Part shown: in pieces, positions 3,219 to 56,642 of the stretch | Position numbering within the stretch: position 1 is the first letter of the stretch | Layout of the letters: each line of letters opens with the position of its first letter | Source of the DNA: Eubacterium sp. An11 | Lineage (GTDB): Bacteria > Bacillota > Clostridia > Lachnospirales > Lachnospiraceae | Reading direction: 5' to 3' | Length of the DNA: 64,000 bases | Assembly: GCF_002161065.1 (NCBI RefSeq) | Contig: NZ_NFLV01000006.1 | Span: forward strand, 117,858-181,857 | Made by a program: the position numbers and the translations under genes | Notes under the pieces: generated by a model | What the model was told of the DNA's origin: nothing | Seen by the model: the letters and a program-made list of their open reading frames with translations, nothing else | Databases searched by the model: none

Positions 3219-3851
3219 TCACCCTTCATATTTTTCCGGCGAAAAAATGGTATCGAACCCCGCCATATGATATCGCTCCAGCATCTTCACATAGCGTTTG
3301 GCGTCCTCCTTTTTCATCCGATGGCGCACAATCTCAAATATGCTGTCAAAATAGGCATTGGTCACAATATGCAGAAATTCCTCCGTCACCTGTCCGGATC
3401 TAATACTCTCACATCCGATAACCTCCATGTACTTATAAGTGTATTCCACCTCAATGCGGGTCAGATCATCCACAAAATTCTGGAATTCCGTTCCGTAGGA
3501 AGCGTCCAGCACCAGCCGGAAAGCGTCAAAATTCTCATAAATATAATCAATAATATTCTCCATCCCGTCTGCAGTGTACTTTCCCATGGTTTCCACCTGC
3601 TTCTGCTCATCAAACTGATGAAAGGTCTCCTGAATATCCATGAACATCTTCATCATGCCGTCCACCGCCGGCTCCACGATAGCCCGGAACAGCCCCTGCT
3701 TATCTTTAAACCGCACATAGATGGAATTGGTGCTGGTACCTGCCGCCGCAGCGATCACCCGCAGGGAAGCATCCTTGTACCCGTTTTTTAAAAATTCTTC
3801 TTTGGCGCATTGAAGAATCCTCTCCGAAACGCCCTCGATCTGTTTTGCCAT
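3219..3851 (-). CDS. TetR/AcrR-family transcriptional regulator
   Basis: The 210-residue protein begins with a TetR-type helix-turn-helix (about residues 10-55: ILQCAKEEFLKNGY, then the recognition part GTSTNSIYVRFKDK). The rest is the all-helical ligand-binding and dimer domain. It stands directly upstream of the ABC exporter genes and has a perfect palindrome in front of it, so it probably represses itself and perhaps the exporter. Length is usual for the family. The ligand is not evident. Confidence 0.9.
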   Translation of the reverse strand: MAKQIEGVSERILQCAKEEFLKNGYKDASLRVIAAAAGTSTNSIYVRFKDKQGLFRAIVEPAVDGMMKMFMDIQETFHQFDEQKQVETMGKYTADGMENIIDYIYENFDAFRLVLDASYGTEFQNFVDDLTRIEVEYTYKYMEVIGCESIRSGQVTEEFLHIVTNAYFDSIFEIVRHRMKKEDAKRYVKMLERYHMAGFDTIFSPEKYEG

Positions 3852-4110: not shown

Positions 4111-4200
4111 ATGGAAGATATTCTCTCATTATTGCTTGTCACTGTCGCAGCGGATGTAATTAGCTATTACATACGCAAATGGCTGGACAGTGACAAATAG
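4111..4200 (+). CDS. Small hydrophobic type I toxin-like peptide, copy 1 (29 aa)
   Basis: ATG at 4111 follows an AAAGGGGG ribosome site. The peptide starts MEDILSLLLVTVAADVIS, continues as one short membrane helix and ends with a charged tail KWLDSDK. This is the build of a type I toxin-antitoxin peptide: one membrane span and a charged C-terminus. A second copy at 20041-20130 has the same length, the same ribosome-site context and the same VIS...I.(R/K)WLD(S/N)D ending. Both are followed by a hairpin and face a convergent antisense promoter. Toxicity is inferred from arrangement, not shown. Confidence 0.7.
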   Translation: MEDILSLLLVTVAADVISYYIRKWLDSDK

Positions 4201-4493: not shown

Positions 4494-5003
4494 TCAATGA
4501 AATGGAAGCTGTTCATCTATCTCATCCGATACTTTCATGAACCCATCATTGTAAGTAGGAAATGATTGCTGCTGATATTGTTGTTCTTCCCTTTGCTGGT
4601 TTTGGCTATGTTGGTACCCTCCCGAACTTTGGCCTCCATATTGTTCATCACCGTATTGTCTTCCGGAATTTAGTTCACTTGCGCTTTTACTCTCCGCGAA
4701 CTCCTGATCTTCAACCACGACATCCGTTGTATATACCTTCCTCCCATCTCTATTTGTATACGAACCAGTCTGTATTCTCCCGGTAATTACAATTTTTGTT
4801 CCCTGTCGGAAATATTTTCCCGCAAACTCGGCCGTCTTCCCAAATGCCACGCATGAAACAAAATCTGCATCCGGTTCCCCCTCCCGTTTGAAACGTCTCG
4901 GCACAGCAAGAGTGTATCTCGCAACAGCCATAGGATTCTCCCCGGCAGTATATCTCATCTCAATATCTCTGGTCAATCTTCCCATCAAAATTACTTTATT
5001 CAT
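4494..5003 (-). CDS. ssb: Single-stranded DNA-binding protein
   Basis: The start is set at MNKVILMGRLTRDIE, the standard SSB N-terminus. The OB-fold covers about residues 1-105 (VSCVAFGKTAEFAGKYF..GTKIVITGRIQTGSY). A Gln/Gly/Ser-rich linker follows and the acidic tip reads DEIDEQLPFH, a variant of the usual DDDIPF tip with one extra residue. The 169-residue length is usual. It binds ssDNA during phage replication and recombination. It is the last gene of the left-arm minus-strand cluster, far from the replication genes at 54-60 kb. Confidence 0.95.
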   Translation of the reverse strand: MNKVILMGRLTRDIEMRYTAGENPMAVARYTLAVPRRFKREGEPDADFVSCVAFGKTAEFAGKYFRQGTKIVITGRIQTGSYTNRDGRKVYTTDVVVEDQEFAESKSASELNSGRQYGDEQYGGQSSGGYQHSQNQQREEQQYQQQSFPTYNDGFMKVSDEIDEQLPFH

Positions 5004-5013
5004 CGCCACCCTC

Positions 5014-5190
5014 CTACTCTTTGTATTTCCTTCCACCGCACCAGCAATAATCTTTTGTCGGTACCCACTCTTCTGTTACCCATTTAGGCCCCTCTTTGCT
5101 TTCCATACATGCATGACTTCCATCTCCGCAATATATTGCATTGCTGCAATTCTCACATGTTTTCTTTTCTCTTTTCTTTTTCTTTGACAC
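5014..5190 (-). CDS. Small Cys-rich protein, unknown function
   Basis: A GTG start at 5190 has AGGAG 8 nt upstream and gives 58 residues: a Lys-rich head (SKKKKREKK) followed by several Cys (CENCSNAIYC, then CWCGG near the end), suggesting a small metal-binding fold. It overlaps the 3' end of the upstream gene. Not recognised beyond that. Confidence 0.6.
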   Translation of the reverse strand: MSKKKKREKKTCENCSNAIYCGDGSHACMESKEGPKWVTEEWVPTKDYCWCGGRKYKE

Positions 5191-6229: not shown

Positions 6230-6901
6230 TTATTCCATATTTTCTATAAATATCAATCCCCCCCCCGCAGGATTTTTCCTTGAGGTAACGTATGCGGTTT
6301 TCCTGGTGTTGAGCCGAATTTTCACTATATCTCCACAATTTATGCATTTATAATTAAAATTATCTTCGTCCATATTTGTGTAGTATTTAAAATCTTCCCC
6401 GCATTCACAGTGGACGTACATCGGCTTTAAATCTTCCAGCGGAACCTTATTGCCGCATTCGCACCTGTGCTCCGTTATATCTGATTTTGTGCAAAATCCT
6501 TTTATTTCCCCACAAGCAGGGCATTTTATGTACAAAAATCCTTTGTATCCATCTACGCTTTGCTCGTAATCACTCCGCGCTTCAGAGCCTCTTGAAATTA
6601 TATCTCTCCACCCTTCGCCAAACAGACTGTCATTCCGGCTTTTTTTCGGTACTCTATGGGCGTCGCTATTCGCCATTTCAGACGGTTTCTGTGTTTCCTT
6701 AATCTTTTCCATTTCTTTCTCTGCAACAACACCCCATGCTGCCGCAACCGCGTCCTGAAGCGTCTCGGGTTTGCTTTCTTCCAGCATATTTTCTCTTCCC
6801 AGTTCGGAATATTTATATGCCATCTGGATAAGAGCAGTAACCTTGTTTACATCAAGATCAAATCGGTTATTTCCGTATGGCGTTACAATATCAATCTTCA
6901 T
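6230..6901 (-). CDS. Multi-zinc-ribbon phage protein with 9-G tract near the C-terminus
   Basis: The start MKIDIVTPYGNNRFD is preceded by GAGGAG. The 223-residue protein has three Cys clusters (CPACGEIKGFC, HCECG, CINCG) in its second half, so it probably binds two zinc ions. A run of nine G (minus strand; 6258-6266) encodes the Gly residues 11-13 codons before the stop. A length change there would replace the last dozen residues. Unknown function. Confidence 0.75.
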   Translation of the reverse strand: MKIDIVTPYGNNRFDLDVNKVTALIQMAYKYSELGRENMLEESKPETLQDAVAAAWGVVAEKEMEKIKETQKPSEMANSDAHRVPKKSRNDSLFGEGWRDIISRGSEARSDYEQSVDGYKGFLYIKCPACGEIKGFCTKSDITEHRCECGNKVPLEDLKPMYVHCECGEDFKYYTNMDEDNFNYKCINCGDIVKIRLNTRKTAYVTSRKNPAGGGLIFIENME

Positions 6902-7064
6902 TCTCGTTCTCCTCGCTTTCTCCTGCGTCCGGTCCTTCTCCATACCGTTCTGCACATGCCCTACTGTCGGGAAACAAAAACATGCACGCGCCTCCAGTTA
7001 TTTCACATCCATATCCGTGCTGCTCATTGGTATGATAAGCAGCCTTACATTTTCCTGCCGCCAT
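6891..7064 (-). CDS. Small Cys-rich protein, 57 aa
   Basis: ATG at 7064 follows AAGGAG with good spacing. The product has four Cys (residues 6, 20, 27, 37) and an acidic tail. Its 3' end overlaps the start of the next gene (6901), which points to coupled translation. Unknown function. Confidence 0.65.
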   Translation of the reverse strand: MAAGKCKAAYHTNEQHGYGCEITGGACMFLFPDSRACAERYGEGPDAGESEENENED

Positions 7065-7688: not shown

Positions 7689-7710
7689 CTGGCGACTTTC
7701 CAGCCGCCAG
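7689..7710 (-). promoter_or_regulatory. DGR target hairpin downstream of VR2
   Basis: On the coding strand CTGGCGGCT and AGTCGCCAG pair (9 bp with one G-T wobble) around the loop GGAA, which fits the GRNA tetraloop seen at DGR target sites. It is 40 nt past the end of VR2 (7751). VR1 has a matching hairpin at almost the same distance. Confidence 0.75.
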
Positions 7711-7726
7711 TTCAGATATACAGTTA

Positions 7727-8875
7727 TCAGTCATTCAGTTTTCTGTAATAAGCGGAGCGGAACCCGATGTAGGAGATGGAATACGCACGAGAGTAGCCCA
7801 AGCTCACGCAGAACACACCCGCATTGGACGTGTAGTTGCAGCTGCCGCCACAAAGCGGCACATATTCTCCGTCCGTGCTGTCAACATACAAGTAAGCATT
7901 TTCTTCACCATCCCACAACCCCAGCTCTCCCAGCTGTTCGGATGCACAAGCTATACTGACATTTCTCCATCTGACACCAGCATATCCCTGTGAGAAATCA
8001 TCATCCGTTGTAAAGGTGATTTCTCCATCTGCCACATTGACATGTATAGGTTTCCCTCTATCATCTACTACATTCCGCCAATCATCGCCCTCTGCTGTCA
8101 GATCAATGTCCAACGCTGCATCATTATTATTCGCCGCCTGCAACACGCTGTTTTTAATACGGAATCCTCTGACCATCTCCCAGACATTGCCGCAAAGGTC
8201 ATGGATGCCGTCTTTTTTATGATTGTGCGTCCATGTCTCCGGTCCAGATCCCGTCAGGACAATTCCGCCACCTTCATATATAATTCCTTCTTCATCTCCA
8301 TCTGCGTAATATTGTCCATAATTTGTATTCCCATGCGGTAAAATGCCGCTCATCCCACAAATCCCGGAAACAAGTCCCCATTCTGCCCTCGTCATAAGAT
8401 GCCATCCTTCTCCTTTTGAGAAGCACACCCTTGCCGCCTCATCATTGGTGATGTTTGTCCACGGTTTCTGCATTGGCAGGCTGTACGGCTTTCCATTTAT
8501 GTTGCAGTTCTCGTAAACAGAAATATATATTTCATCATATTCTTTATTTCCGATGATAAATGCTGGGTGAACTTTATCACTTCCTCCAGGGAAAAGTTCG
8601 CAATTTCTCTTTTTCGTGATCCGATACATAAAAGACGGGATTCCCACATCGTCATAAATAGCAACAACGTCCTCTTTTAACCCCGGTGCTGGTTCCGGCA
8701 TGTCAGCTACCTTCGCAGTGGCTCCATGGATTGCGATGCCCGATTTGTTCCCGTATTCATTCAGGAATTTCTCACACATTTTCTGTGCAAAGGCTTCCTC
8801 CCCTTCTGCTTTGTAGATAATCTCTTCCTGATAATCTCCGCAGTTATCCCTCTTTGTCATGATTACTTTTGCCAT
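7727..8875 (-). CDS. DGR variable protein 2 (remote target; FGE-sulfatase / C-type-lectin fold)
   Basis: The start is set at the second in-frame ATG (8875), 8-9 nt after GAGGGG. In the 382-residue protein, residues about 1-65 are unlike the other target; from about residue 66 on it follows the formylglycine-generating-enzyme-like fold: a SKGEGWHLMTRAEW segment, HGNTNYGQYY, LTGSGPETW and the fold signature DLCGNVWEMVRGFR. The last 40 residues (VPLCGG..., then NAGVF and IGFRSAYY) are encoded by VR2 and vary at template-adenine codons. Cys appears at two variable positions. The gene is 16.8 kb from the reverse transcriptase and lies among small early-type genes, so it may not be a tail-tip protein. 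Ligand unknown. Confidence 0.92.
   Translation of the reverse strand: MAKVIMTKRDNCGDYQEEIIYKAEGEEAFAQKMCEKFLNEYGNKSGIAIHGATAKVADMPEPAPGLKEDVVAIYDDVGIPSFMYRITKKRNCELFPGGSDKVHPAFIIGNKEYDEIYISVYENCNINGKPYSLPMQKPWTNITNDEAARVCFSKGEGWHLMTRAEWGLVSGICGMSGILPHGNTNYGQYYADGDEEGIIYEGGGIVLTGSGPETWTHNHKKDGIHDLCGNVWEMVRGFRIKNSVLQAANNNDAALDIDLTAEGDDWRNVVDDRGKPIHVNVADGEITFTTDDDFSQGYAGVRWRNVSIACASEQLGELGLWDGEENAYLYVDSTDGEYVPLCGGSCNYTSNAGVFCVSLGYSRAYSISYIGFRSAYYRKLND
7751..7862 (-). repeat. DGR variable repeat VR2
   Basis: This 112-bp stretch aligns without gaps to the template repeat (24564-24675). Read on the coding strand there are 13 differences: 12 at template A and one G-to-C. It ends, 3' on the coding strand, with the invariant GC-rich block GGGTTCCGCTCCGCT, which should be the initiation-of-mutagenic-homing site. 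Confidence 0.95.
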
Positions 8876-8892: not shown

Positions 8893-10230
8893 TTAATCAA
8901 TCTCTACCTCCGTGTAAAGTTCATGTGTTCCGTTTAACAGTTTGAACTCATTGTCAGAACTGTATGTATGTCCATAAAGAGCCAAAACATTGTAAAATTC
9001 CTGTAAAATCTTCCCGTTTTTCTCATTGTGCTTCACAGGCCATTCTGTCAGTTCCATATCTGCTGTACCTATATATGCCGCAATCAGCGTCTGCTCCATC
9101 GCATTAAGGCGTTCCACTGTTTCCTTGGCTTCCTGTATCTCGTTCTCCTCAGCGTTATAATATTTTTTCCCGAGAATAAATCCGATAAAATCTCCATCGG
9201 TAAGATATGCGCCGCTTTTTCTTATCACTTTCCAGAGAGAAAGCATTGCACCCTCCGTATTCTCCAACGGCTTTATTTTCCCTGCGATAATATCCATGAT
9301 GAAATCTCTCCGGCATGTCGCCATCTCTTTTGCCATAGCCTTAATCTTTTTCCTCCGGCTGTCCCTCTCAGACCTGCGTTTTTCCTCCGGCGTCAGCTCC
9401 CGTTTTTGCTTTTTTGCTTTACGGATTATTCTGACTTCACTCCAGTATTTTAGGTAATACAATTTTTCCTTTCCGTCTGGTTTTACATCAAATTTCTTTG
9501 GCGGTTCTTCCCTCAAAGAATAGCTCTTTACTGTCTCCCACTTACTTGTATAGATTTCCTGCCTGGCTTTATCCGGTGCCTCCTCAATACCGTTCTTTTT
9601 CAGCATGGCAACGATTTTCTTTTCGTTTGCCTTCTGCTTTTCTTCCTGGATAATTCTCTGAACACTGCTCGTAATTTCCCTGGAATTTCTTGCGTCTTTC
9701 AATATCTGATTCCGTTTCTTCAAGCTTTTAATCTTTTCCAGCTCATATAAGTCAGTAAGGGAAATCTGAAATCCGTCCTCCTCCTGTTTCTCCTGTAATA
9801 ACTTCTGGTCAAGCTTTGCGATATTCAATCTGCGGCGCACAGTAGTTTTACTGAACCCAGTTTTCTTGGCAATCCCTTCCTCTGTTTCTCCCAAATCAAG
9901 AACCATTTGAAATCCTTGTGCCTGCTCATAAATTGTCAGATCATCCCTCTGCATATTCTCAAGCAGCATGGTCTCCAACTGTTCTTTTTCATCCATCTCT
10001 GCCACTTCGCATGGGGCTGTCTCTATCCCGGCCTTAATTGCAGCCTTTAATCTCCTGTTTCCGATCACCACCAAGTATGTATCGTCTTCTTCTGGATTTT
10101 TCACCACGGTTAAATTCTGTCTGATCCCCTGAGCCTTGATGCTCTCCGCCAGTTCATCAATCCCTTTATAGGTTTTCCTCACATTTCTCGGATGGACTTT
10201 TAATTTGCTAAGTTCAATCTCCTGTATCAT
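8893..10230 (-). CDS. ParB/Noc-like DNA-binding protein
   Basis: The 445-residue protein starts with a ParB N-terminal domain (IELSKLKVHPRNVRK, then VIGNRRLKAAIKAG and LLENMQRDDLTIYEQAQGFQ) followed by a helix-turn-helix (EEGIAKKTGFSKTTVRRRLNIA). The long C-terminal half is Lys/Glu-rich and does not look like a canonical ParB dimer domain. No parA is seen beside it, so plasmid-type partition is unproven; it could be a regulator or a CTP-dependent clamp with another role. It overlaps the upstream HNH gene by 17 nt. Confidence 0.85.
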   Translation of the reverse strand: MIQEIELSKLKVHPRNVRKTYKGIDELAESIKAQGIRQNLTVVKNPEEDDTYLVVIGNRRLKAAIKAGIETAPCEVAEMDEKEQLETMLLENMQRDDLTIYEQAQGFQMVLDLGETEEGIAKKTGFSKTTVRRRLNIAKLDQKLLQEKQEEDGFQISLTDLYELEKIKSLKKRNQILKDARNSREITSSVQRIIQEEKQKANEKKIVAMLKKNGIEEAPDKARQEIYTSKWETVKSYSLREEPPKKFDVKPDGKEKLYYLKYWSEVRIIRKAKKQKRELTPEEKRRSERDSRRKKIKAMAKEMATCRRDFIMDIIAGKIKPLENTEGAMLSLWKVIRKSGAYLTDGDFIGFILGKKYYNAEENEIQEAKETVERLNAMEQTLIAAYIGTADMELTEWPVKHNEKNGKILQEFYNVLALYGHTYSSDNEFKLLNGTHELYTEVEID

Positions 10231-10858
10231 CTCTGCTTTTTCTCCTCTCTTTTCTACTTTTCTTTGCTTTGGATATGGAGATTTTCAATGCCGCTGTATT
10301 TGCGGCTGCCTCCATCAGTTCTCTGTTACTTCCCTTTAAATTCCATCTGTTCATCACCACAAGTTGAGAACGATCTACCATAATCAGATTACTTATATCA
10401 GTGTTAGTCGTATCCCCATCAACAAATATGATTGCCTTCCCTTTCGGAACCGGACCGTGATGCTTCTCCCATTCCAGAATATGCTTCATTCTCCACACAT
10501 TCGGCTCGGCTACTTTTTCATACACATATTTCTGGCCACGCCTATAATTATGCCGGATACTCACTGTTCCAATAGGCTTGCGGTTTTTCGGGATATGTCC
10601 TTTTTTAAATTGTGTCTCTGCCATTTTCCCCTTCGTCGGAGGATGTTTCCCCTTATTGGCCGGAACATGGCCTTTTTCAAATTTCCCAGTCCTCCCGGTT
10701 GTGATTTTATGGTTTTTAAGGCATGACCGTATCTGGTTCACTCCCAAGGAAAGACCAAACTCTGCATTTATCGCATCCGTGACTTCTTTATAGCTATGCC
10801 CGTAAGCAAAGTTTCTGAGAAAATCCAGTTCCTCGTCGGAATAATAATGAATTTTCAA
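10214..10858 (-). CDS. HNH endonuclease, homing-type
   Basis: The N-terminus has a helix-turn-helix-like segment (YSDEELDFLRNFAYGHSYKEV), then NUMOD-like repeats around KGH.P.NKGK. The HNH core is near residues 125-162: KHILEWEKHHGPVP, then IIFVDGDTTNTDISNLIMV, which fits the H..H-N-N pattern of phage HNH nucleases. The C-terminus is very basic. Such proteins are often free-standing homing endonucleases or packaging-linked nucleases. Its place here is among early left-arm genes. Confidence 0.85.
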   Translation of the reverse strand: MKIHYYSDEELDFLRNFAYGHSYKEVTDAINAEFGLSLGVNQIRSCLKNHKITTGRTGKFEKGHVPANKGKHPPTKGKMAETQFKKGHIPKNRKPIGTVSIRHNYRRGQKYVYEKVAEPNVWRMKHILEWEKHHGPVPKGKAIIFVDGDTTNTDISNLIMVDRSQLVVMNRWNLKGSNRELMEAAANTAALKISISKAKKSRKERRKSRDDTGD

Positions 10859-11091: not shown

Positions 11092-11338
11092 TCTCTTTCA
11101 CCTCACTTTTTTGAAACAGATCATTAACTGCGGCTTTTATTTTCCCCGCCAGCGCCGGGCCTACACCTCTCACATCGGATACGGCTTTCAAAATTTCCTC
11201 TACATCCACTCCTGGGACTGCTTTTTTCCCGTCTTCGTACCCGTTCATATAAACCCTTGTGCAGAAATCATCAAACTGCTGATGGTCGTATTTTTTCACT
11301 GCTTTATACACTTTTCTTGTGGTGACATATTTCTTCAC
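11081..11338 (-). CDS. Small helix-hairpin-helix protein
   Basis: 85 residues. The C-terminal half carries a helix-hairpin-helix signature (VRGVGPALAGKIKAAV), a non-specific DNA-binding element. It overlaps both neighbours by a few bases. Probably a DNA-binding accessory protein; nothing more specific can be said. Confidence 0.75.
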   Translation of the reverse strand: MKKYVTTRKVYKAVKKYDHQQFDDFCTRVYMNGYEDGKKAVPGVDVEEILKAVSDVRGVGPALAGKIKAAVNDLFQKSEVKENEK

Positions 11339-12255
11339 TTTTCGTCCTCCTCTAAAGATTTCAGTACCTGTTTCATAGCATATCTGGCATTATTGGTGAG
11401 CTGTCTCTGCCAACATTTGTTGCGGGGCGACCAGCGGAAACCATTCTTTTTCAGAATATCCCTGATATCAGAATCTGGCTTTTCATCAAAGAAAAGCTGT
11501 AACCGCATGATTTCCGTATTTTCTACTGAGCGGAAATACTTATTATCGCTTTCAGAGTTTTCCCGTTCTTTTGCCGCTTTCAGAGCTTTCAAGCGTCCTT
11601 CCACTCTGTGGATATTCTGGTTATTATTTGCCAGGGCGTAAGACGGATATCCTACTCTTCCGCAAAAATCAGGTTTTCGCAATTCAGCAATCTGCCTGTC
11701 CGTATACCCCAATTCCCGCAATGCCGCATCCCCCTTCTCTGTGTCCTTCATGCGGATTGCCTTGTTCGCCGCTTTCATTTTCTCCTGGTTTTCTTTTAAT
11801 CCAGCCAGCTTCTTCTCCAGTTTCTCCACGGCATCCTTGTCCCCGGATTTAATAATATCTTTTCCGTTGGCAATGCTCTGGATTTTATCAATAATTTTCT
11901 GGATTTCCTGAAATTCTTTATAATTTCTGTCGGATGCGGCGTTCTGCCGCTCCTTTTTCTTCACAGAGAAGTTCCCGGCTCCGGAAATCATTACAGACGG
12001 GCACATGCAACCAATCCTACTCCGTTCATTCAAATTATCGGCCATCTTCTTGGAATACCTCGCCGCAAGACCGTAAATCCTCTCTTCCGCATCCGGTCTT
12101 TCTTCTACGGCCTTATCTGCAATTTTATATGCACTGTCTACATATCCCTTGTATTCCGCTTTCAGAGATCCGGTTTTGTATTCCCGGAATGACATCATGT
12201 CGTGCGCCTGTTTTGCCAGCTCTTCGTTGATTGGATAATAAATTCTCTCCGCCAT
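11335..12255 (-). CDS. Phage/plasmid DUF3560-like protein
   Basis: 306 residues. The middle is a coiled-coil (EFQEIQKIIDKIQS ... EKLEKKLAGLKENQEKMKAANKAIRMKD). The C-terminal part (LQLFFDEKPDSDIRDILKKN, then GFRWSPRNKCWQRQLTNNAR) matches the end module often seen in DUF3560-type and large polyvalent proteins of mobile elements. Function unknown. Confidence 0.7.
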   Translation of the reverse strand: MAERIYYPINEELAKQAHDMMSFREYKTGSLKAEYKGYVDSAYKIADKAVEERPDAEERIYGLAARYSKKMADNLNERSRIGCMCPSVMISGAGNFSVKKKERQNAASDRNYKEFQEIQKIIDKIQSIANGKDIIKSGDKDAVEKLEKKLAGLKENQEKMKAANKAIRMKDTEKGDAALRELGYTDRQIAELRKPDFCGRVGYPSYALANNNQNIHRVEGRLKALKAAKERENSESDNKYFRSVENTEIMRLQLFFDEKPDSDIRDILKKNGFRWSPRNKCWQRQLTNNARYAMKQVLKSLEEDEK

Positions 12256-14159: not shown

Positions 14160-14247
14160 ACTCATTATATTGAGTTTATGGTTATAATTTAACACGTGTA
14201 GGTAGTCTGTCAATACCCTTTTTTACTTTTTCCTCATTTTGTTGAGT
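14160..14247 (-). promoter_or_regulatory. Left-arm promoter with repressor-type operators (14.2 kb)
   Basis: On the minus strand: -35 TTGACA (14208-14213), 16-bp spacer, -10 TAAATT (14186-14191). The upstream block AGTAAAAAAGGGTATTGACA is shared with the promoters at 15.95 and 18.43 kb. A palindromic operator ACTCATTATATTGAGT covers the start region (14160-14175) and a variant lies upstream (14232-14247). The promoter sits inside the 3' end of the upstream HTH gene. Confidence 0.75.
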
Positions 14248-15939: not shown

Positions 15940-15985
15940 ACTCGTTTTATTGAGTTTATAATACCACGTAGATAGATAGTGTCAA
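15940..15985 (-). promoter_or_regulatory. Left-arm promoter with operator (15.95 kb)
   Basis: -35 TTGACA (15980-15985), 16-bp spacer, -10 TATTAT (15958-15963), minus strand. The operator ACTCGTTTTATTGAGT (15940-15955) lies across the expected start point. The upstream block GTAAAAAAGGGTATTGACA matches the other two left-arm promoters. Confidence 0.8.
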
Positions 15986-18381: not shown

Positions 18382-18449
18382 ACTCGTTTTATTGTGTTTT
18401 GTAACTCGTTTTATTGAGTTTAATATAACACGTGTAGATAGTCTGTCAA
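18382..18449 (-). promoter_or_regulatory. Left-arm promoter with two operators (18.43 kb)
   Basis: -35 TTGACA (18444-18449), 16-bp spacer, -10 TATATT (18422-18427), minus strand. Operators ACTCGTTTTATTGAGT (18404-18419) and ACTCGTTTTATTGTGT (18382-18397) are 22 bp apart just downstream. It faces away from the lipoprotein gene. Confidence 0.8.
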
Positions 18450-18501: not shown

Positions 18502-18550
18502 TAGTTTAAAATAATCATGTATTATGATATTATTTTTTATAAAAAAGGAG
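18502..18550 (+). promoter_or_regulatory. Promoter of the lipoprotein gene
   Basis: -35-like TTGTAG, 18-bp spacer, -10 TATGAT, then AAAGGAG 9 nt before the ATG. No full operator palindrome overlaps it, which fits expression in the lysogen. Confidence 0.5.
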
Positions 18551-18559
18551 TTCTTGTAT

Positions 18560-19570
18560 ATGAAAAAATTAAATTTTATTATTACCCCCCCCCACAATAT
18601 TTTTTGTAATAAAACAATAAAAAAAGTTATTATATATTCTTCTATAACGTTGTGTCTTTTTTTATCTGCTTGTGGGCGCACATCTCAATCTCCAGAAGAT
18701 AATACTTCTTCAGAAATTTCGTCTACGGAACTTTCCCCAGAAGGTAATATATCTTCATCGGAATCTAACGCCTCTCCAAATACGCAATTGAAAGACATAT
18801 CGCAATACATCTCATCGGTTTTTCCTAATGCCGAAATTACTACCGATGAAAATAGTATGAATATTGATTTGAGCGATTGTTATACTTCCTCATCCACTGA
18901 ATATGTGCAAGAAGTTCTGTCTGCTTGCGCTTATATTTTAGGAACCAGTGGATTTGAGAACGAGTTTTCAAATATTTCATTTGGGTATAATTGTGACAAA
19001 GTGTTTATGGCATTGACTATTACGGATTTTAAAAGTATTTCAGATTTTACATCCACTTTATTTTGCACTGGGGAAGATGCAAACCACGTAACAGCATTTA
19101 ATATTCTATACGATAAAATTTTTTATAACCATGACACAAAAAACAAACAGTTAATTGCACAAGGAGATCTCGCAAAACAATACGGGATTGACGGCGGGGA
19201 TTCTGTTGCGGAACGCCAACCAGAGGATGATTTATGGTTTTATTCATCATTCAATGGCTCCATCATCCATGAATTGCAGGAATCGACATATGTTATTAAT
19301 TATAGATACGATACAGAGGATACCTATTCTTATGGTCAATCCGTTGGAAATGACATTAACAACGCTGCAAAAAATTTAAGAACTTATTTAAGCAAATCGG
19401 AATTATTATCGTTTGATAAAATACTGATTATTTGTTTTGATGGGGAGTCCAATAATGCATATAGCAGATATAGTCTTGAAAAAAATAATAACGGTTCTTG
19501 GTATGTGGGAGAATATGAGATAGGTGATGAAAAATTCAAAGAAGGATTAGAAAGTGTTTTGGGTAATTGA
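18560..19570 (+). CDS. Secreted lipoprotein, prophage 'moron'
   Basis: 336 residues. A basic start, a hydrophobic stretch (VIIYSSITLCLFLSACG) and a lipobox LSAC with Cys38 mark a lipoprotein anchored on the outer face of the membrane. A Ser/Pro/Glu-rich linker follows (about 40-72). The rest is a soluble domain I do not recognise. The gene is AT-rich, on the opposite strand to its neighbours, and has its own promoter, all typical of a lysogenic-conversion gene. Nine C (18585-18593) lie at codons 9-12, ahead of the lipobox; a slip there would abolish the protein. A role in superinfection exclusion is only a guess. Confidence 0.8.
   Translation: MKKLNFIITPPHNIFCNKTIKKVIIYSSITLCLFLSACGRTSQSPEDNTSSEISSTELSPEGNISSSESNASPNTQLKDISQYISSVFPNAEITTDENSMNIDLSDCYTSSSTEYVQEVLSACAYILGTSGFENEFSNISFGYNCDKVFMALTITDFKSISDFTSTLFCTGEDANHVTAFNILYDKIFYNHDTKNKQLIAQGDLAKQYGIDGGDSVAERQPEDDLWFYSSFNGSIIHELQESTYVINYRYDTEDTYSYGQSVGNDINNAAKNLRTYLSKSELLSFDKILIICFDGESNNAYSRYSLEKNNNGSWYVGEYEIGDEKFKEGLESVLGN
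18585..18593 (+). repeat. Poly-C(9) tract in the lipoprotein coding start
   Basis: Nine consecutive C at codons 9-12 of an AT-rich gene. Such tracts are prone to slipped-strand length change. Confidence 0.9.
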
Positions 19571-23080: not shown

Positions 23081-23248
23081 TCATGACTGCAATTCCTTTT
23101 GCAGCATGGCCGCTTCTTTGATTTTCAGTAAATCTTTCTCCGTCACGACTCCGCCCTGCAGAAGTTCCAAGGCGAGGGTATCAATAATATCTGTTTGCAG
23201 CTTAATCACCTCAGACTGCTTTTCTAGGATTTTCAATATGGCTTCCAT
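23081..23248 (-). CDS. Small coiled-coil protein overlapping the RT gene end
   Basis: 55 residues from MEAILKILEKQSEVIKL, all-helical. Its start lies 38 nt inside the 3' end of the reverse transcriptase gene, so it is read from the same mRNA. Similar small helical proteins are common between tail and lysis genes. Unknown function; a DGR accessory role cannot be excluded. Confidence 0.6.
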   Translation of the reverse strand: MEAILKILEKQSEVIKLQTDIIDTLALELLQGGVVTEKDLLKIKEAAMLQKELQS

Positions 23249-24353
23249 GTTTCTTCCCTCCCATCCTTTTTTCGACCCCATCGCGGGTCAGCACAAAATC
23301 TTCTATTAACCTTTTCCGGAACATTTTGCAATCACAATGTTTCAGCATCCCCAGATAGCACTCCAAGGTGGTAAATGCTTCTTTCATAGATATCTTTCCC
23401 CGGCGATACTCCTCCTGCCGCCGCCGGAGATTGCGTCGCATCTGCAATGTTGTACTCTTCCGGATCGTTACATAGTGCGGCCATATCCGGTAGCCGACAA
23501 ATTCTATCCCCTGCGACACCGGACGGATGCAGGTTTTCTGGTTCAGTGACAGTCTCAGTTTCCTTTCAAGAAAATCGTTAATAAGAGACTTCCATTCGTG
23601 CAACTGCGCTTTGCTGTCAGATAATATAATCACATCATCCATATACCGGATATAAAAATGGATGCGTAAGGTTCGTTTACAATACTGGTCCAACGCATCC
23701 AGATAGATATTTGCAAAAACCTGTGACAACAGATTCCCTATCGGCATCCCGGTGTCATACAACCTTTCTTCAACCGGCACCTCCCCGGGAGACTTCCCGG
23801 GCGGCAGTCCAAACGGTGTATGTTTGCAGTCAATAATGCTGTACAGCACATTGAGCAGGCGCCGGTCCTTTATCTTCTTGGCAATTATCTTTTTAAGCAC
23901 CTCATGAGAGATGCGGTAAAAATATTTGCTGATGTCCAATTTGAGGTAATACCACTTCTCTGGCTTATTATTCGTCAGGTTTACCCAGTATTTCAACCTC
24001 TCCATGGCAGACAAGGCTCCTTTCCCGGGCACGCAGCCGTAAGAATCCCGGATATATCCTTTCACCAGCAAAGGATTCAACACCCTGTATATGGCCCATT
24101 GGACAATCCGGTGATAGAACGTGATGGACATTATCATCCGCTTTTTCGGCTCATACACATAGAAAATGTAATACCGATCAACAGTATAATGGCCAGAATA
24201 AACGTCCTGCTGTATCCTGCGGATGATATTCCAGCAGTCAAACTGTGCCGCCAGTACGTCTTTGTGGTAACGCCGTCCTCTGGACGCATCCTGTATCGCC
24301 CCATAAAGGTTTTCATCCGAAAAAATTTGGTCGAAAAGATTTTTGATTTTCAT
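23211..24353 (-). CDS. DGR reverse transcriptase
   Basis: 380 residues. RT motifs run in order: LKLDISKYF with the first catalytic Asp (about residue 140), GMPIGNLLSQVFANIYLD (about 202-219) and YMDD (237-240, in HFYIRYMDDVIILSD), then the thumb region (GIEFVGYRI). The SQ motif and the lack of a maturase or HNH domain separate it from group II intron enzymes. In DGRs this enzyme, with Avd, copies the TR RNA and misincorporates at adenines; the cDNA replaces the variable repeat. Gene order target-avd-TR-RT on one strand is the standard DGR layout. No strong ribosome site precedes the ATG. Confidence 0.96.
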   Translation of the reverse strand: MKIKNLFDQIFSDENLYGAIQDASRGRRYHKDVLAAQFDCWNIIRRIQQDVYSGHYTVDRYYIFYVYEPKKRMIMSITFYHRIVQWAIYRVLNPLLVKGYIRDSYGCVPGKGALSAMERLKYWVNLTNNKPEKWYYLKLDISKYFYRISHEVLKKIIAKKIKDRRLLNVLYSIIDCKHTPFGLPPGKSPGEVPVEERLYDTGMPIGNLLSQVFANIYLDALDQYCKRTLRIHFYIRYMDDVIILSDSKAQLHEWKSLINDFLERKLRLSLNQKTCIRPVSQGIEFVGYRIWPHYVTIRKSTTLQMRRNLRRRQEEYRRGKISMKEAFTTLECYLGMLKHCDCKMFRKRLIEDFVLTRDGVEKRMGGKKHGSHIENPRKAV

Positions 24354-24563: not shown

Positions 24564-24679
24564 AGCGGAGCGGAACCCGATGTTGGAGTTGGAATTCGTA
24601 CGAGAGTTGTTCAAGTTCACGTAGAACACACCCGCATTGGACGTGTTGTTCCAGTTGCCGCCACAAATCGGCACACGCT
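24564..24679 (-). repeat. DGR template repeat (TR)
   Basis: 116 bp lie in the 344-nt gap between avd and the RT gene. Read in the target frame the TR would encode ten Asn codons (eight AAC, two AAT), the sign of an adenine-rich template built for mutagenesis. It aligns without gaps to VR1 over 116 bp and VR2 over 112 bp. Past its 3' end no GRNA hairpin is found, unlike at both VRs. The surrounding gap has no supported protein gene; the TR RNA is expected to be read through to the RT gene. Confidence 0.96.
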
Positions 24680-24697: not shown

Positions 24698-25141
24698 TTA
24701 TCTACTATATCGGCCACGTGAAGACCGGGATGCTTTCTGCTGCTGGTTAGCCGTATTCCCGGCAGCAGTGCCATTTACTGTCTGGATATATCCTCCAATG
24801 AGCTTTCCTATCTCCTGTGATCGCCTTGTCCACTCCTTGTAGCTGGATATCCCTTTCAGGATTTTCAATTCAAATGCATCTTTGATATACACCTGCAAAG
24901 TCTTGTTCTTGATATCCAGGTCTGTGAGCGTTGTTTTCTTGAAATGTTTCCATCGCACGGCGACCGCCAGCTCTAGCAATTCATTCATGCAGTGCATCAT
25001 ATCATTGCCGACAGCGTATTTTTCTGCGATGCTCCATCGCATCATGATAGGGTATGCATACCGGCGCATATCCTGTATTTTCTGTAAAATGATAAATGTA
25101 TCATTTTCCGTTATTTCAGATGTATTCTGGCTTCCATCCAT
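24698..25141 (-). CDS. avd: DGR accessory variability determinant, four-helix-bundle protein
   Basis: The ATG at 25141 (12 nt after GGAGG) is preferred over an upstream TTG at 25165. The 147-residue protein has four predicted helices (for example ILQKIQDMRRYAYPIMMRWS; MHCMNELLELAVAVRW) and ends its core with RRSQEIGKLIGGYIQTV, close to the EIGRLLGGWI motif of Avd proteins. The basic C-terminal tail (RSSRGRYSR) fits RNA binding. Avd forms a pentameric barrel that binds the RT and is required for mutagenic homing. It is encoded just downstream of VR1. Confidence 0.92.
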   Translation of the reverse strand: MDGSQNTSEITENDTFIILQKIQDMRRYAYPIMMRWSIAEKYAVGNDMMHCMNELLELAVAVRWKHFKKTTLTDLDIKNKTLQVYIKDAFELKILKGISSYKEWTRRSQEIGKLIGGYIQTVNGTAAGNTANQQQKASRSSRGRYSR

Positions 25142-25168
25142 AGTCTTTCGCAGCCTCCATTTCAAAAT

Positions 25169-25186
25169 GCCCTGCTACCGCAGGGC
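25169..25186 (-). promoter_or_regulatory. DGR target hairpin downstream of VR1
   Basis: On the coding strand GCCCTGC and GCAGGGC form a perfect 7-bp stem around loop GGTA, which fits GRNA. It lies 38 nt past the end of VR1 (25225). VR2 has the same element at 40 nt. Confidence 0.8.
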
Positions 25187-25209: not shown

Positions 25210-26262
25210 TTACAGTTCGCAGAAAGCGGAGCGGAACCCGATGCTGGAGTAGGAATTCGTACGAGAGCTGCGCAAGTCCACGTAGAACACACCCGCAGCG
25301 GACGCGCTGTACCAGTAGCCGCCACAAAGCGGCACACGCTCACCCTCCGAATTGAAATAATGATAGTCACCACCATAATCACCACCAGGTTCATCCGGAT
25401 ACAGCAGCAACGCTTCTGCAATCTCCGGAGCAGCACTCAATCCGGAGTTCAGTGTCATATCTTTATACTGGCAATAGTGTTCTCCAGTCGTAACGGTTAA
25501 ACTGCCAGACGTCAACTGAATCTTGCTGGACACCCAATCCCATTTCAATGTTCCGTCAGTCCCCGGCTCAACCAGTGAGCCATCCGCCTTTATGGCCTTC
25601 CAGAGAGTGGATTCGGCGGACACGCTTGCATCAGGGGACATGCAGTTCGCATATGGGATAATCTGGATTTCTCCATCGTCCAGCCGCATCCCGGCGCACC
25701 ACTCCCACACGTTACCGTTCAGGTCAGCAATACCATCCGGCATCCAGTTATGGTACCATGTGGCCGGGCCGGACCCGGTCAGGCATCGCGCCGTCCTTCC
25801 ATCAGACTCATACGAACACGGGACGCCCTTTTCGTGCGGGTATCCGTGGTCGGCGCCATAATTATTGTTTCCCCGTGGCATTGTTTCGTTCTTGCGGCAC
25901 CACAACGCAATCGCGCACCACAGAGAATATGGCATCAGCCCCCAGCCTTCCCCTTTGTTCCGGCAGTAATTGACTGCCTGGTCAAAATTGAGATTCACTT
26001 TCGGGTCACGCATCGGAAGAGAATACGCCCTGTCTTCCAGAACGATATTCTGGAATTTAGAAACATACATCACATCTTTTTCCACGTTATCCACCATAAA
26101 AGCCGGATGGATGTTTTGGCTGCCTCCCTCGATCAGATCGGACATTTTCATCTTCGGGAAAGGCACCATCACGGACGGCATCCCCCGGTCATCAAAAAGG
26201 ATGGTATTCTTACCGCCAGACATTGCTTCAATCGCCAGTTTAAAATCATCAAAATTTGGCAT
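25210..26262 (-). CDS. DGR variable protein 1 (main target; FGE-sulfatase / C-type-lectin fold)
   Basis: 350 residues. From about residue 50 it follows the formylglycine-generating-enzyme-like fold (NYCRNKGEGWGLMPYSLW; PRGNNNYGADHG; CLTGSGPATWYHNW; ADLNGNVWEWCAGMRL). The last 40 residues, VPLCGGYWYSASAAGVFY to IGFRSAFCEL, are encoded by VR1 and hold the variable ligand-binding loops. It is the last gene of the tail operon, after fiber-type genes, so it is probably displayed at the tail tip and changes host-receptor binding. This placement is inferred from Bordetella-phage-type DGRs. No enzymatic activity is expected. Confidence 0.95.
   Translation of the reverse strand: MPNFDDFKLAIEAMSGGKNTILFDDRGMPSVMVPFPKMKMSDLIEGGSQNIHPAFMVDNVEKDVMYVSKFQNIVLEDRAYSLPMRDPKVNLNFDQAVNYCRNKGEGWGLMPYSLWCAIALWCRKNETMPRGNNNYGADHGYPHEKGVPCSYESDGRTARCLTGSGPATWYHNWMPDGIADLNGNVWEWCAGMRLDDGEIQIIPYANCMSPDASVSAESTLWKAIKADGSLVEPGTDGTLKWDWVSSKIQLTSGSLTVTTGEHYCQYKDMTLNSGLSAAPEIAEALLLYPDEPGGDYGGDYHYFNSEGERVPLCGGYWYSASAAGVFYVDLRSSRTNSYSSIGFRSAFCEL
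25225..25340 (-). repeat. DGR variable repeat VR1
   Basis: 116 bp, aligned without gaps to the TR (24564-24679). There are 13 differences, all at adenines of the coding strand of the TR; nine of ten template Asn codons are changed. The 3' GC-rich block GGGTTCCGCTCCGCT is identical in TR, VR1 and VR2. Confidence 0.97.
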
Positions 26263-49234: not shown

Positions 49235-50194
49235 TCAGATAAAAAACGCATCCTTTCTCTCCTTTTCCATCTGTGCAACAAACATATTCGGCGCTGTCAT
49301 TCTGCACGGGATGTCGCACTGCCCCATATCTGTATACGCCGCTCTCTTCTTTTCCAGAATATCTTCATCCATCACATGGCCCACAATCTGGTACGGTTTA
49401 TGACAGCAGTACATCACTTCCCCGTGTTCATTCACGGCGATCTGCGCCCACTGTGCCGTGCATCTATCTTCCTGCCGGTCCAGCATTTCCCATTTAAAAT
49501 TAAGAGTTACTCTCTCATCTTCCTGTTTCAGCTTCTTTATTGCCTCGATACTCTGGTTTATATCTTTCTCAGCATACTCGTGATTATAAAAATCTCCTGC
49601 GGTAGACTCTGCAGGACGGAAGGATATGTAATCCACGGGAAGGTCTCTATTCGCATCATAAAAACGGTAAACCTCTTCATGGTCCTGCACGACAATCTGA
49701 ATCCCCAGTGATGTTTCAGGGCTGTTTATCCTCTTCCATGACGCATAGCGTGCTATATTATCCCTTACCTTTTCATAAGCTCTCACGCCTCTGCGCTTTT
49801 CATAGCTTTCCTCATCCCATCCATCGAGGGAGACTTTCAGATAATCCGGCTTTATATATACCAATCTGTTAAAGTTCGTGTTTATTCCGTAATGGATTCC
49901 CTTCCCTTCCATCCATGCTGTAATCTTCATAATATCCGGATTGATGGTAGGCTCTCCCCCTCCAGTCAGAATAAATCCCTCTACGCCCAGGCTCAGCAGT
50001 CTTTCCGCATAGGTGATAAATTCCTCATACTTCATCGAATATGCCTGTGCATCCAGCTCCCAGCGTCCATAGGTACAATACGGACATTTGTTATTACAGT
50101 AATTCGTGAGGAAAATATCTGCCGTGATCGGTCTCTGGTCGTTCAGCACTCTTCCAATATGGCTGAACATCTTATCCCCTGCTATATTTTCCAT
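49235..50194 (-). CDS. Radical SAM protein, predicted DNA-base modification enzyme
   Basis: 319 residues from MENIAGDKMFSHIG. The 4Fe-4S motif is FLTNYCNNKCPYC (CxxxCxxC, about residues 33-41); FILTGGGEPTINPDI (GGE motif) and VSLDGWDEESY follow. The C-terminus has extra Cys (CCHKPYQ, CDIPC), perhaps a second cluster as in SPASM-type enzymes. It lies next to a TAGT-type glycosyltransferase and a ParB-like gene, directly before the terminase. That triad is known from phage DNA-hypermodification clusters. Substrate and reaction are not known. Confidence 0.82.
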   Translation of the reverse strand: MENIAGDKMFSHIGRVLNDQRPITADIFLTNYCNNKCPYCTYGRWELDAQAYSMKYEEFITYAERLLSLGVEGFILTGGGEPTINPDIMKITAWMEGKGIHYGINTNFNRLVYIKPDYLKVSLDGWDEESYEKRRGVRAYEKVRDNIARYASWKRINSPETSLGIQIVVQDHEEVYRFYDANRDLPVDYISFRPAESTAGDFYNHEYAEKDINQSIEAIKKLKQEDERVTLNFKWEMLDRQEDRCTAQWAQIAVNEHGEVMYCCHKPYQIVGHVMDEDILEKKRAAYTDMGQCDIPCRMTAPNMFVAQMEKERKDAFFI

Positions 50195-50198
50195 CCTC

Positions 50199-51053
50199 TC
50201 AGACCACCTTCCTGTATTTCTCATTCAGTATTTTCGGAACACAGCACTCCCAATCTATCCGGTGGTGAATCCTTTTGTGCTTGCTGTACATCATCCCCAC
50301 CTTTATGCAGCTAGGCATCGCCATCACGGAATAGAATGTTTTCACGTATGTTCCTGTTTCCAGATACGCCTCTGTCATTCCTCCATCCAAAGATTGAGTA
50401 GGCAACTGAATAATGCACATATCGCATAATGTGAAGAATAACCTTCCCCTACTTCCCAATGTGGTATAGGTCGTAACATCTTCATTCATCGTGCCTCTGA
50501 AATCAATCGGCCTGTCCGTCCTGCAAAACAGGCTGTTCATTGCTTTCCTGAGGAGCCTTTTCTTAAAGTTTCCTCCATCCAGACCGCCGACGAAATCTCC
50601 TCCCTGTGCAAATGCCACGGTTGCCGCTCCGGACACATCCAAGAATTTCAGCATATCCTCAAATATTCTGTCCAGGTTCCTTGCAGGCTTCGCCGCAAGT
50701 TTCTTCCCCTCTGCATACCGGAAATCTATCTCTTTATAATCATCATCCATCATCAAGAAATAGGTCAGCCCAAGATCCTTTGCGATCCGGAAAGACTCAT
50801 TTCTCGCATAGATAATGGCTCGGTGATTATTGAAATTATCCATCGTGTCTGCCCGGTCGTATGCTTCCTGCTTATTAAACATGATCACATGATCTTTCCC
50901 GAAATTCTCCAGGTACTTTTCTGTATCACTGTCCTCATTGTCTATGATCATGTACCATCTTCCGGTGTAGCCGCCTCTCTGTAAGGCTCTCATCGTCACC
51001 ACATTGTCCGCACGGCCATGAGTTAATATGAATACTGCAAAATCATTACGCAT
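50199..51053 (-). CDS. TAGT-type glycosyltransferase (DNA base glycosylation, predicted)
   Basis: 284 residues from MRNDFAVFILTHGRADNVVT. A GT-A-type fold is suggested: FILTHGRADN, MIIDNEDSDT, then LTYFLMMDDDYKEIDF with a DDD metal motif and RGTMNEDVTTYTTLGSRG later, all marks of the TET/JBP-associated glycosyltransferase (TAGT) family. Such enzymes are predicted to add sugar to hydroxymethylated bases in phage DNA. No TET/JBP oxygenase or hydroxymethylase is found in the window, so what supplies the acceptor base is open. The stop of the upstream ParB-like gene overlaps its start. Confidence 0.85.
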   Translation of the reverse strand: MRNDFAVFILTHGRADNVVTMRALQRGGYTGRWYMIIDNEDSDTEKYLENFGKDHVIMFNKQEAYDRADTMDNFNNHRAIIYARNESFRIAKDLGLTYFLMMDDDYKEIDFRYAEGKKLAAKPARNLDRIFEDMLKFLDVSGAATVAFAQGGDFVGGLDGGNFKKRLLRKAMNSLFCRTDRPIDFRGTMNEDVTTYTTLGSRGRLFFTLCDMCIIQLPTQSLDGGMTEAYLETGTYVKTFYSVMAMPSCIKVGMMYSKHKRIHHRIDWECCVPKILNEKYRKVV

Positions 51054-51798
51054 CTTCCTCGCCCTCCATAACATCCAGGACATCGGAGAACAGGGCTGCG
51101 TACCCATTCGCAATCGCATTGTCCATATCAATAATGACGAGAGCTGATTTCTCCATCAGTCTCTGCATCTCCTGTGTGGCGTGTGCATAATACTCTGCGA
51201 TATTCCGGTAATTAAACACGTTATGCCTCCGGGCAGCCTGAATCAGAAATCTTCTTTCCTCTTCCGTGATCCCTTCCGCCTTCTCAATCTCAGAAATCAA
51301 CTGTTTCGACTTCTCTTCATCGAGCATTTCATCTATGGTAGGCTGCTCCCCTGTGATCTCGTACTGTGGTATGTTGGTGTTGAAGGTATACTTATCATCC
51401 GTGATCTCATCTGCGAAATCACTTTCCTCCCCATCAAATCCGAACAGCGACATATCAATGCTCATGATCTGAGCCAACTCCTGCTCTAACTTTTCCTCAT
51501 CCCACGTAGCAATCTCGGCAGATTTATTGTCTGCCAGACGGAACGCCCGAATCTGCTCTTCGTTCAGATCATCGGCAACAATACACGGCACTTCTTTCAT
51601 GCCCAGTTTCTTTGCCGCCTTTATTCTCGTATGCCCTGCCACTACTACATTATCGCCTGAGATCACAATAGGGATTTTGAAACCAAATTCCTGTATGCTC
51701 TCCGCTACCGCATCCACAGCCTCATCATTATTCCGTGGATTGTTTTCATACGGTAAGATCTCTTCGATCTTCTTATAAACCATTTTCAATTCGCCCAT
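51046..51798 (-). CDS. ParB-domain protein of the modification cassette
   Basis: 250 residues from MGELKMVYKKIEEILPYENN, with AAAGGAG 8 nt upstream. The ParB nuclease-like domain covers about 1-95 (VISGDNVVVAGHTRIKAAKK, then VPCIVADDLNEEQIRAFRLA). No helix-turn-helix like that of the other ParB protein (8893-10230) is seen; the C-terminus is helical and ends acidic. ParB-domain proteins of this kind accompany DNA methylases and hypermodification enzymes in phages. It may select DNA sites or nick DNA; not shown. Confidence 0.82.
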   Translation of the reverse strand: MGELKMVYKKIEEILPYENNPRNNDEAVDAVAESIQEFGFKIPIVISGDNVVVAGHTRIKAAKKLGMKEVPCIVADDLNEEQIRAFRLADNKSAEIATWDEEKLEQELAQIMSIDMSLFGFDGEESDFADEITDDKYTFNTNIPQYEITGEQPTIDEMLDEEKSKQLISEIEKAEGITEEERRFLIQAARRHNVFNYRNIAEYYAHATQEMQRLMEKSALVIIDMDNAIANGYAALFSDVLDVMEGEEDA

Positions 51799-52111
51799 GC
51801 CACCAGCTCCTTTCCCCATTCACGACAAAAAATAAAGGACTGCACTCTCCGTACAATCCTTATCATTTTCCATATTCGTTTTATGCTGTTTCTTCTTTCA
51901 ATGCCCCGCCCTGTCGGGCAGGGCTGAATGAGAAAGAATCGGCACAACACAGCCGACAACAGGTTTCCACAAGGGCATGTTTTGTTTCTTCCTGTTGCAG
52001 TTTACACTATATCACCCTTCCCCAGTGTCATTCCAGTGATATTTTATGTCATTTAGTGTCATTTTGCGAACTTTTGCGAACTTTCCATGAACAAAGGTGT
52101 CATTTGGTGAA
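51799..52111 (-). promoter_or_regulatory. Candidate late promoter and leader with direct repeats
   Basis: No gene is seen in this 313-bp stretch. On the minus strand a -10 TATAGT (52006-52011) lacks a consensus -35. Upstream are four copies of AATGACA(C/T) (plus strand 52024-52032, 52046-52054, 52055-52065, 52096-52105) and a tandem 10-bp repeat TTTGCGAACT (52064-52084). A GCCCTG/CAGGGC hairpin (51908-51924) lies in the leader. It precedes the whole late operon and follows the gene of a late-regulator-type protein. Confidence 0.55.
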
Positions 52112-55877: not shown

Positions 55878-56642
55878 TTACAAATATTGCTCAAAATCAG
55901 CCGTTCCATTTTCTGCTGGTGCAGATGCATTGGGAATCTCTTTTGGCATATAATCTAAAAATGGAGTTGCATCTCCCAAAAACGTTTTGGCATGTTTGAT
56001 AAATTTCAATGGCGTATGTTCTCTCTCACACTCCGTCCTGTAATTACGCGCCGCCAGCAGCAATTCTTCCGGAGAAAATCCATCATTGATACGGGCCTGA
56101 TATTTTTTATATCCCTGTCCTTTATCAGCCTTCTTTGGATATTCGGCCCAAAATTCCTCAAATTCTGTGGGATAGTTGTTTCTCCTTTTCCCTGTCTCCT
56201 CCCCTTTCTTCTTATCCGGAAGAGCGGGTGTTGGTGGACTCTGTGCTTCAATAATTTTTTTATCATCCAGCGGCACTCCATGAGTCCTGGAATACGATTT
56301 ATTTTCCTTGAGAAGAAGCTGGCTTTTCTCATCTGTATATTGCGTCTCATGATAACGGTTCTGTGAAATACAGTTGTGCATCCTCCAGTGTTTTATTACG
56401 ATCACTCCATCTTCAAAGGTTAGAACAAACCGTTTCAAAATCAGCATTTTTAAATCGTCATCGTGACACCCGACTGTTCTCATTATCCTCTTCGGGTTCC
56501 CTATGAATCCATCATCATCAGCCCGCATATTCAGATGGAAATATAACGCCTGTGTTGACAGCGGCATATCAAGGAAAGCATCACTATCCACAATTTTCAT
56601 GGTAAACATCCGTTTCTGTGCCATCTCTTCCGCCTCCATCAT
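55878..56642 (-). CDS. Phage replisome organizer (initiator)
   Basis: 254 residues. The winged-helix N-terminus (MFTMKIVDSDAFLDMPLSTQ ... ALYFHLNMRADDDGFIGNPK) is the replisome-organizer domain. After a linker the end (EEFWAEYPKKADKGQGYKKY) fits the C-terminal helicase-loader contact. The start may be 56642 or the ATG before AQKRMFTM at 56624. It binds the phage origin. Confidence 0.88.
   Translation of the reverse strand: MMEAEEMAQKRMFTMKIVDSDAFLDMPLSTQALYFHLNMRADDDGFIGNPKRIMRTVGCHDDDLKMLILKRFVLTFEDGVIVIKHWRMHNCISQNRYHETQYTDEKSQLLLKENKSYSRTHGVPLDDKKIIEAQSPPTPALPDKKKGEETGKRRNNYPTEFEEFWAEYPKKADKGQGYKKYQARINDGFSPEELLLAARNYRTECEREHTPLKFIKHAKTFLGDATPFLDYMPKEIPNASAPAENGTADFEQYL

Follow-up and report, generated by a model that had tools for sequence, protein, structure and literature searches.

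A second, distant target of a prophage diversity-generating retroelement belongs to a separate protein lineage and may act inside the cell

Organization of the prophage and its retroelement

The window, i.e., the whole 64-kb stretch of DNA that was analyzed, harbors one prophage of a contractile-tailed phage. Its genes are ordered as serine integrase, HTH regulator, DnaC/DnaD/exonuclease, large terminase, portal, tail sheath, tape measure, and baseplate, followed by a diversity-generating retroelement (DGR; T1, Avd, TR, and RT) and an endolysin, and up to this point all except the integrase lie on the minus strand (Table 1). Past the endolysin, a divergent gene (18524-19570, +) is followed by a further minus-strand module, which contains the second target (T2) and ends at the SSB gene at 4494. 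Host-type genes (a TetR regulator and an ABC transporter) make up the left flank. At the left prophage boundary, relatives were homologous only to stretches between about 4000 and 4400, and the host TetR gene ends at 3851. A sister prophage in a Eubacteriales MAG (G200), whose T2 is 68% identical, is collinear with the window prophage from the integrase to SSB, and the possibility that 4.5-17 kb forms a separate mobile element beside the phage was hence rejected. Another sister prophage, that of Blautia sp. MSJ-19 (G207; T2 63% identical), is also collinear over the stretch compared (homologue of 56639-58198 through SSB); it shares most but has no matches to the ParB, HNH, and 6230-6955 genes or to 18524-19570. 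The T2 module is common to the window prophage and both sisters.

Two minor features were observed in the prophage. Before the terminase, ParB-like, PHROG 842, and radical-SAM genes (49235-51819, -) form a block that is 82-86% identical in the G200 sister prophage and that could, as a guess, be a DNA-modification block. A short ORF of 29 codons (by eye) at 4111-4200 (+), with a hydrophobic stretch and a terminator-like hairpin behind it, looks like a small type I toxin, and the DNA around it has similar stretches in relatives.

Table 1. Coordinates of the retroelement, its two targets, and features of the second-target module
Feature	Position	Strand	Remarks
Serine integrase	62070-63797	+	Not on the minus strand, unlike the genes down to the endolysin
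Target 1 (T1), 350 aa	25210-26262	-	Variable protein in tail module
VR1	25225-25340	-	13/13 differences to TR at template A
Hairpin after VR1	25169-25186	-	7-bp stem, GGTA loop, 39 nt past VR1 end
Avd accessory protein	24698-25165	-	bAvd PF22296, 65 bits; phrog_3206 (Avd of DGR)
TR (template repeat)	24564-24679	-	From TR-VR alignment and assembly search
DGR reverse transcriptase (RT)	23211-24353	-	RVT_1, 80.5 bits; phrog_1423, 427 bits
Promoter-like repeat 1	18422-18449	-	TTGACA-16-TATATT; divergent from 18524-19570 (+) gene
Promoter-like repeat 2	15958-15985	-	TTGACA-16-TATTAT
Promoter-like repeat 3	14186-14213	-	TTGACA-16-TAAATT; TG before second hexamer
Primase-like protein	11335-12255	-	phrog_19458; same module as T2
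HNH endonuclease	10214-10858	-	Same module as T2
ParB-like protein	8893-10230	-	Directly upstream of T2, 17 bp before its ATG
Target 2 (T2), 382 aa	7727-8875	-	ATG 8875, stop 7727; N-terminal ~45 aa predicted beta-beta-alpha, linker, C-type-lectin (FGE/TaqVP-type) domain
VR2	7751-7862	-	112 bp; 12/13 differences to TR at template A
Hairpin after VR2	7689-7710	-	9-bp stem (one G-T), GGAA loop, 40 nt past VR2 end
Single-strand DNA-binding protein (SSB)	4494-5036	-	Downstream end of T2 module

VR1 departs from TR at 13 positions in 116 bp, each a template adenine. The alignment of VR2 with the same template (24564-24675) ran without gaps over 112 bp and gave 13 differences, 12 of them at TR adenines (hypergeometric P 1.3e-8), as the sequence-only reading of this DNA had claimed. 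The lone change off template A is G>C; the codon at 7838-7840 (-) reads TGG (Trp) in TR and VR1 and TGC (Cys) in VR2. VR2 lies 16,813 bp from TR, in agreement with the 16.8 kb given in that reading, and 17,474 bp from VR1. When TR was used as the query against the host assembly (E up to 0.001), three places were returned, TR, VR1, and VR2, with no further TR-like match. VR1 and VR2 share an identical 3' end, TCCGCT, and both are followed by a GC-rich hairpin with a four-base G..A loop; a GC-rich, short-loop hairpin just behind the VR is a defining mark of DGR targets. A DGR-type RT with Avd, near-identical TR and VRs differing at template A, and a hairpin after both VRs were thus all found, and the retroelement of T1 very likely has T2 as its second target. 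Among relatives, Dulem virus 37 and contig G146 carry such hairpins behind both of their VRs; in G029C10 and G037 one stands behind VR1, and in G076 behind the second target. The hairpins that follow VR1 of Lagaffe and of G029C19 have loops of 7 and 8, respectively. No hairpin was found behind Lagaffe VR2, which is internal to its gene, or behind G029C20, nor at either of the two genes of G029C88.

The second target protein and its gene module

T1 and T2 both match PHROG 2889 over most of their length (318 and 454 bits) and give weak Pfam FGE-sulfatase matches. The distinct N-terminus that had been ascribed to T2 was confirmed for its first ~70 residues, which are unlike T1; the distinction does not extend to the remaining protein, which is homologous, and T2 is hence a full-length paralogue of T1 with another N-terminus. 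VR2 encodes the C-terminal part of T2, and a lectin fold with a C-terminal VR is the arrangement of a TaqVP/FGE-type DGR target. The AlphaFold2 model of T2 (33-row alignment, mean pLDDT 84) showed a confident lectin-type domain from about residue 70, a linker of low confidence (44-66), and an N-terminal beta-beta-alpha unit of low to moderate confidence; modelled alone, this N-terminus was poor (pLDDT 57). With the T2 model, Foldseek returned as the best match the DGR variable protein of Thermus aquaticus, TaqVP (PDB 5vf4, E 2.9e-29), which T2 also matches at the profile level (E 9e-71) with 26-27% identity only. Next was Mtd of the Bordetella phage BPP-1 (E 2.2e-3), a weak fold match to the shared lectin fold.

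The N-terminal region separates the two kinds of targets. Among the loci listed, the residues before the lectin domain had a median of 19 in tail-module targets and of 65 in 59 second targets. An N-terminal FD/YD motif was present in 41 of the 44 tail-module targets listed; among the listed second targets the pattern occurred in 7/59, always where the lectin domain itself begins, and T2 lacks the T1-type N-terminal motif. A scripted count of the 59 second-target N-termini gave 37 long, 17 short, and 5 four-cysteine forms, with two of the 37 (L097 and L100) short by eye. On the basis of hydropathy only, 58 second targets contained no 19-residue window with a mean above 1.35, and no signal-peptide-like or membrane-like stretch. 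T2 might also be displayed on the surface of the lysogen or secreted by it, and the sequence-only reading had suggested a variable cell-surface factor. T2 is a prophage gene in a module with its own promoter-like repeats, as such a factor could be, but the hydropathy of the 58 relatives speaks against cell-surface display, and a lysogen surface protein is regarded as quite improbable. T2 matched none of the PADLOC defence families (E up to 0.01), and the neighbours tested gave no convincing match.

In place of a tail module with baseplate neighbours, T2 has ParB, HNH, primase-like, and SSB genes around it. This content, together with three promoter-like repeats, is in agreement with the early-type operon suggested earlier. 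The three repeats are alike also in the spacer and have matching places in all three prophages (the window, G200, and G207), which suggests that they could share one regulator. The proposed control of the module by a repressor could not be substantiated, as no repressor for the repeats was identified; the divergent 348-aa product of 18524-19570 had no convincing family match. A fixed operon partner of T2 was sought and not found, the commonest adjacent family (with 6230-6955) being present at just 17 of 59 loci. That one RT and TR serve two proteins differing in N-terminus and gene module is supported.

Lineage, neighbourhood, and natural variation of second targets

A search with T2 in 200 genomes of the family gave matches in 6, the source genome included. 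An alignment of five T2 sequences, used to search genome and viral collections, yielded 25 and 78 loci, respectively, the viral set being drawn from the best 80 of 479 matches. The loci for the tree were drawn with T2-based patterns, and the numbers are hence no census; the labels 'remote' and 'local' follow from genes within 3-4.5 kb and can be misassigned on short contigs. The tree, computed on the target body minus the N-terminus and VR (103 of 118 sequences after removal of repeats, 266 columns, midpoint-rooted), split second targets from tail-module targets with a support of 0.905 and one label mismatch among the 103. The mismatch comes from Gemmiger, whose second target groups with second targets although it and its T1 are about 3.5 kb apart. 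Six loci labelled as second targets branch near the base (L066, L095, L097, L100, L102, and L105). A recent duplication inside the window phage was rejected, as T2 groups with the second targets of other phages and not with T1.

Among the matches listed, 41 of the 56 second-target loci had a same-strand SSB, DnaC, RecU, ParB, or primase-like gene within the stretch, and none of the 37 tail-module loci did; 15 of the 56 lacked any replication-type marker within the stretch examined. In the set, only the Gemmiger second target was seen to have nearby the baseplate-side genes that stand ahead of T1. These observations bear on a reading of T2 as a second virion adhesin, i.e., an alternative or additional receptor-binding head on the tail, through which one template would double the attachment repertoire. 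T2 is of the same fold and family as T1, and the authors describing Lagaffe_CP suggest such a role for its two targets in the available part of their report (PMC11792537), but the replication-type neighbours, the near absence of T1-type baseplate-side neighbours, and the missing T1 N-terminal motif argue otherwise, and an adhesin is considered possible but doubtful.

T2 was absent from all 16 tail-target virus records picked (6 of them 40 kb or longer), and is therefore an optional extra. An optional gene could be no more than a side effect of duplication, with the extra target copy drifting and the retroelement overwriting it while it has no function; this is highly unlikely, since T2 belongs to a separate lineage with 29 relatives at 43-68% identity and a recurring neighbourhood, which argues for selection on it.

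Second targets were examined for signs of diversification. The RT search covered 37 picked loci, comprising 17 of the 25 genome-set loci (in 16 genomes) and 20 of the 78 virus records. At E up to 1e-10, an RT match was present in 12 of 16 genomes and 10 of 20 virus records, a few of these matches being weak and possibly of other RT kinds; T2 occurred without an RT match in 4/16 genomes and 10/20 virus records, among draft genomes and several short records. Eight virus records carry T2 and RT on a single contig, at distances of 26.9 to 38.9 kb. Of 23 second targets found alongside an RT, 21 had a candidate template near the RT of the same genome or record and 18 showed an adenine-specific difference (P < 1e-3). 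For this count, the candidate template with the smallest P was retained out of at most four, which biases the result towards small P; L049 rests on a poor ungapped alignment, and two negatives (L048 and L075) are the same sequence. The differences fell at template A in 17/17 cases in G146, 11/11 in Lagaffe, and 16/20 in Dulem virus 37. In one genome two T2-like genes lie in tandem (L034, G029:C88, 128-2430); for one of them the VR has a matching template on a different contig of the genome (6/8 differences at A), and the VR of the other fits neither of the tested templates well.

The earlier proposal had named a VR2 that stays unchanged where VR1 changes as evidence against it; comparison of relatives contradicts such constancy. 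Three near-identical pairs of second targets differed at 0/1024, 1/1018, and 5/1024 positions of the body and at 17/113, 21/113, and 17/113 positions of the VR, respectively, and in the first pair 15 of the 17 VR differences fall at adenines of the template known for one partner. With bodies 0-5 bases apart and VR2 17-21 bases apart, VR2 therefore varies in nature. Four less close pairs showed 3- to 4-fold more change inside the VR. Six listed pairs had zero change inside and outside the VR; three of these (L060/G146, L062/G029C88 for both genes, and L048/L075) pair a sequence with itself or compare entries of one strain, and three come from differently named records (L073/L074, L063/L084, and L095/L096). 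In one sister-phage pair both VRs vary more than the bodies, VR1 at 14/112 vs 27/968 for T1 and VR2 at 16/112 vs 81/1019 for T2.

Proposed function and relation to known systems

From what is seen in the family, RT and Avd would copy the single TR RNA with errors at A, and the cDNA would replace the VR of either target, VR1 in the tail module or VR2 in the early module, with the shared 3' end and the downstream hairpin, both present in the sequence, presumably marking each VR. T1 may be read as a receptor-binding tip owing to its short N-terminal motif and the adjoining baseplate genes. For T2, gene position, the absent T1 N-terminal motif, and the lack of export signals (by hydropathy only) point to an intracellular protein. 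It is proposed that T2, the second adenine-mutated target of the TR and a member of a separate paralogue lineage found mostly in replication-type modules, is a hypervariable binding protein of the cell interior, during infection or lysogeny, and not a tail-tip adhesin, a reading to which we assign a probability of about 0.58. The intracellular partners of T2 would themselves vary; they might be host defence proteins, in which case T2 would act in counter-defence, or belong to competing phages, with superinfection exclusion as the outcome, and such a role is tentatively the best reading of the sequence data. A lectin face of this variability would suit partners in the cell that change quickly, as rival phages or the defence proteins of a host do. 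In conflict systems, DGR targets of bacteria have been proposed to act as antigen sensors (PMC10907252, as far as its available text goes), and in other gut phages the distal second targets have defence or counter-defence genes nearby (PMC8008677, PMC12629997). Several points weigh against the proposed reading: the product of an early-module gene can still reach virions, the lectin fold and template held in common with T1 fit a common ligand class, no described defence family was matched, replication-type markers are missing at some second-target loci, T2 is optional and in some genomes and records comes with no RT match, VR2 has one change off template A, and the identical second targets in three pairs of differently named records do not differ in their VRs either. 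More tentatively, temperate phages of Clostridia might maintain an early protein dedicated to the cell interior and comparable to an antibody; the retroelement that rewrites the tail tip would also rewrite the binding face of this protein, one template serving both attachment and the intracellular fight against host defences or rival phages.

The window DGR resembles that of BPP-1 in its RT, Avd, A-specific TR/VR differences, and post-VR hairpin. The BPP-1 DGR has one target, a tail-fibre protein; the window DGR differs in having two, one of them far away. Distal or second VRs have been described, in the parts of the reports available, for Lagaffe_CP, CP11, and Lelie (PMC11792537, which also cites the Roseburia phage Shimadzu), for Quimbyvirus (PMC8008677), and for four gut prophage species (PMC12629997), and phages with two targets in one cassette are also on record (PMC10743442, likewise in part). 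In Quimbyvirus and the four gut prophage species the second VR is far from RT, as in the window phage, and lies near methyltransferase or counter-defence genes according to the portions available (PMC8008677, PMC12629997); a tblastn search with T2 matched 52 phage records with no Bacteroides phage among them, and no relation of those targets to the T2 lineage was seen. Prophage 3 of C. clostridioforme LM41 has two PHROG 2889 genes, Orf13 and Orf71, listed as host metabolism in the accessible part of the report (PMC11318856), and these may represent the same two-target arrangement. Distal second VRs are thus already known, and what appears to be new here is the separate early-module target lineage, of which no description was found in the open-licence literature on second, distal, or early targets.

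The usual view of phage DGRs is that they act on tail tips and serve host range. With a further lineage of targets that is found repeatedly in replication-type modules and is variable in nature, hypermutation by phages would extend to a non-tail protein. Surveys confined to the vicinity of RT miss such distal targets, and one survey, in the part available, itself states that looking only near RT leaves them out (PMC8144416). Two-target phages can be named in which the non-tail reading is testable, e.g., FP_Lagaffe, from which virions were produced in one study (PMC5883640), while Lagaffe_CP was not induced in another (PMC11792537), as the available parts of both indicate. This Faecalibacterium phage (FP_Lagaffe/Lagaffe_CP), like the window phage, has two FGE-type targets of one TR, and its second target, gp40, is immediately followed by an exonuclease gene and has Gam, ERF, and SSB genes in its vicinity. 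Unlike the window T2, the Lagaffe T2 (L042, 31798-33060) has almost no N-terminal domain and runs on for >100 residues past the VR, and VR2 is hence internal. Dulem virus 37 (PP511443.1) has a T2 52.7% identical over 99% of the query, its own RT/Avd/T1 cassette, and the same hairpin behind VR1 and VR2. In this virus, T1 and T2 have in common a 183-bp block (80% identity; L041, 9159-9340 and 20258-20440) made up of the VR, the gene end, and the hairpin, as if the whole landing site had been copied.
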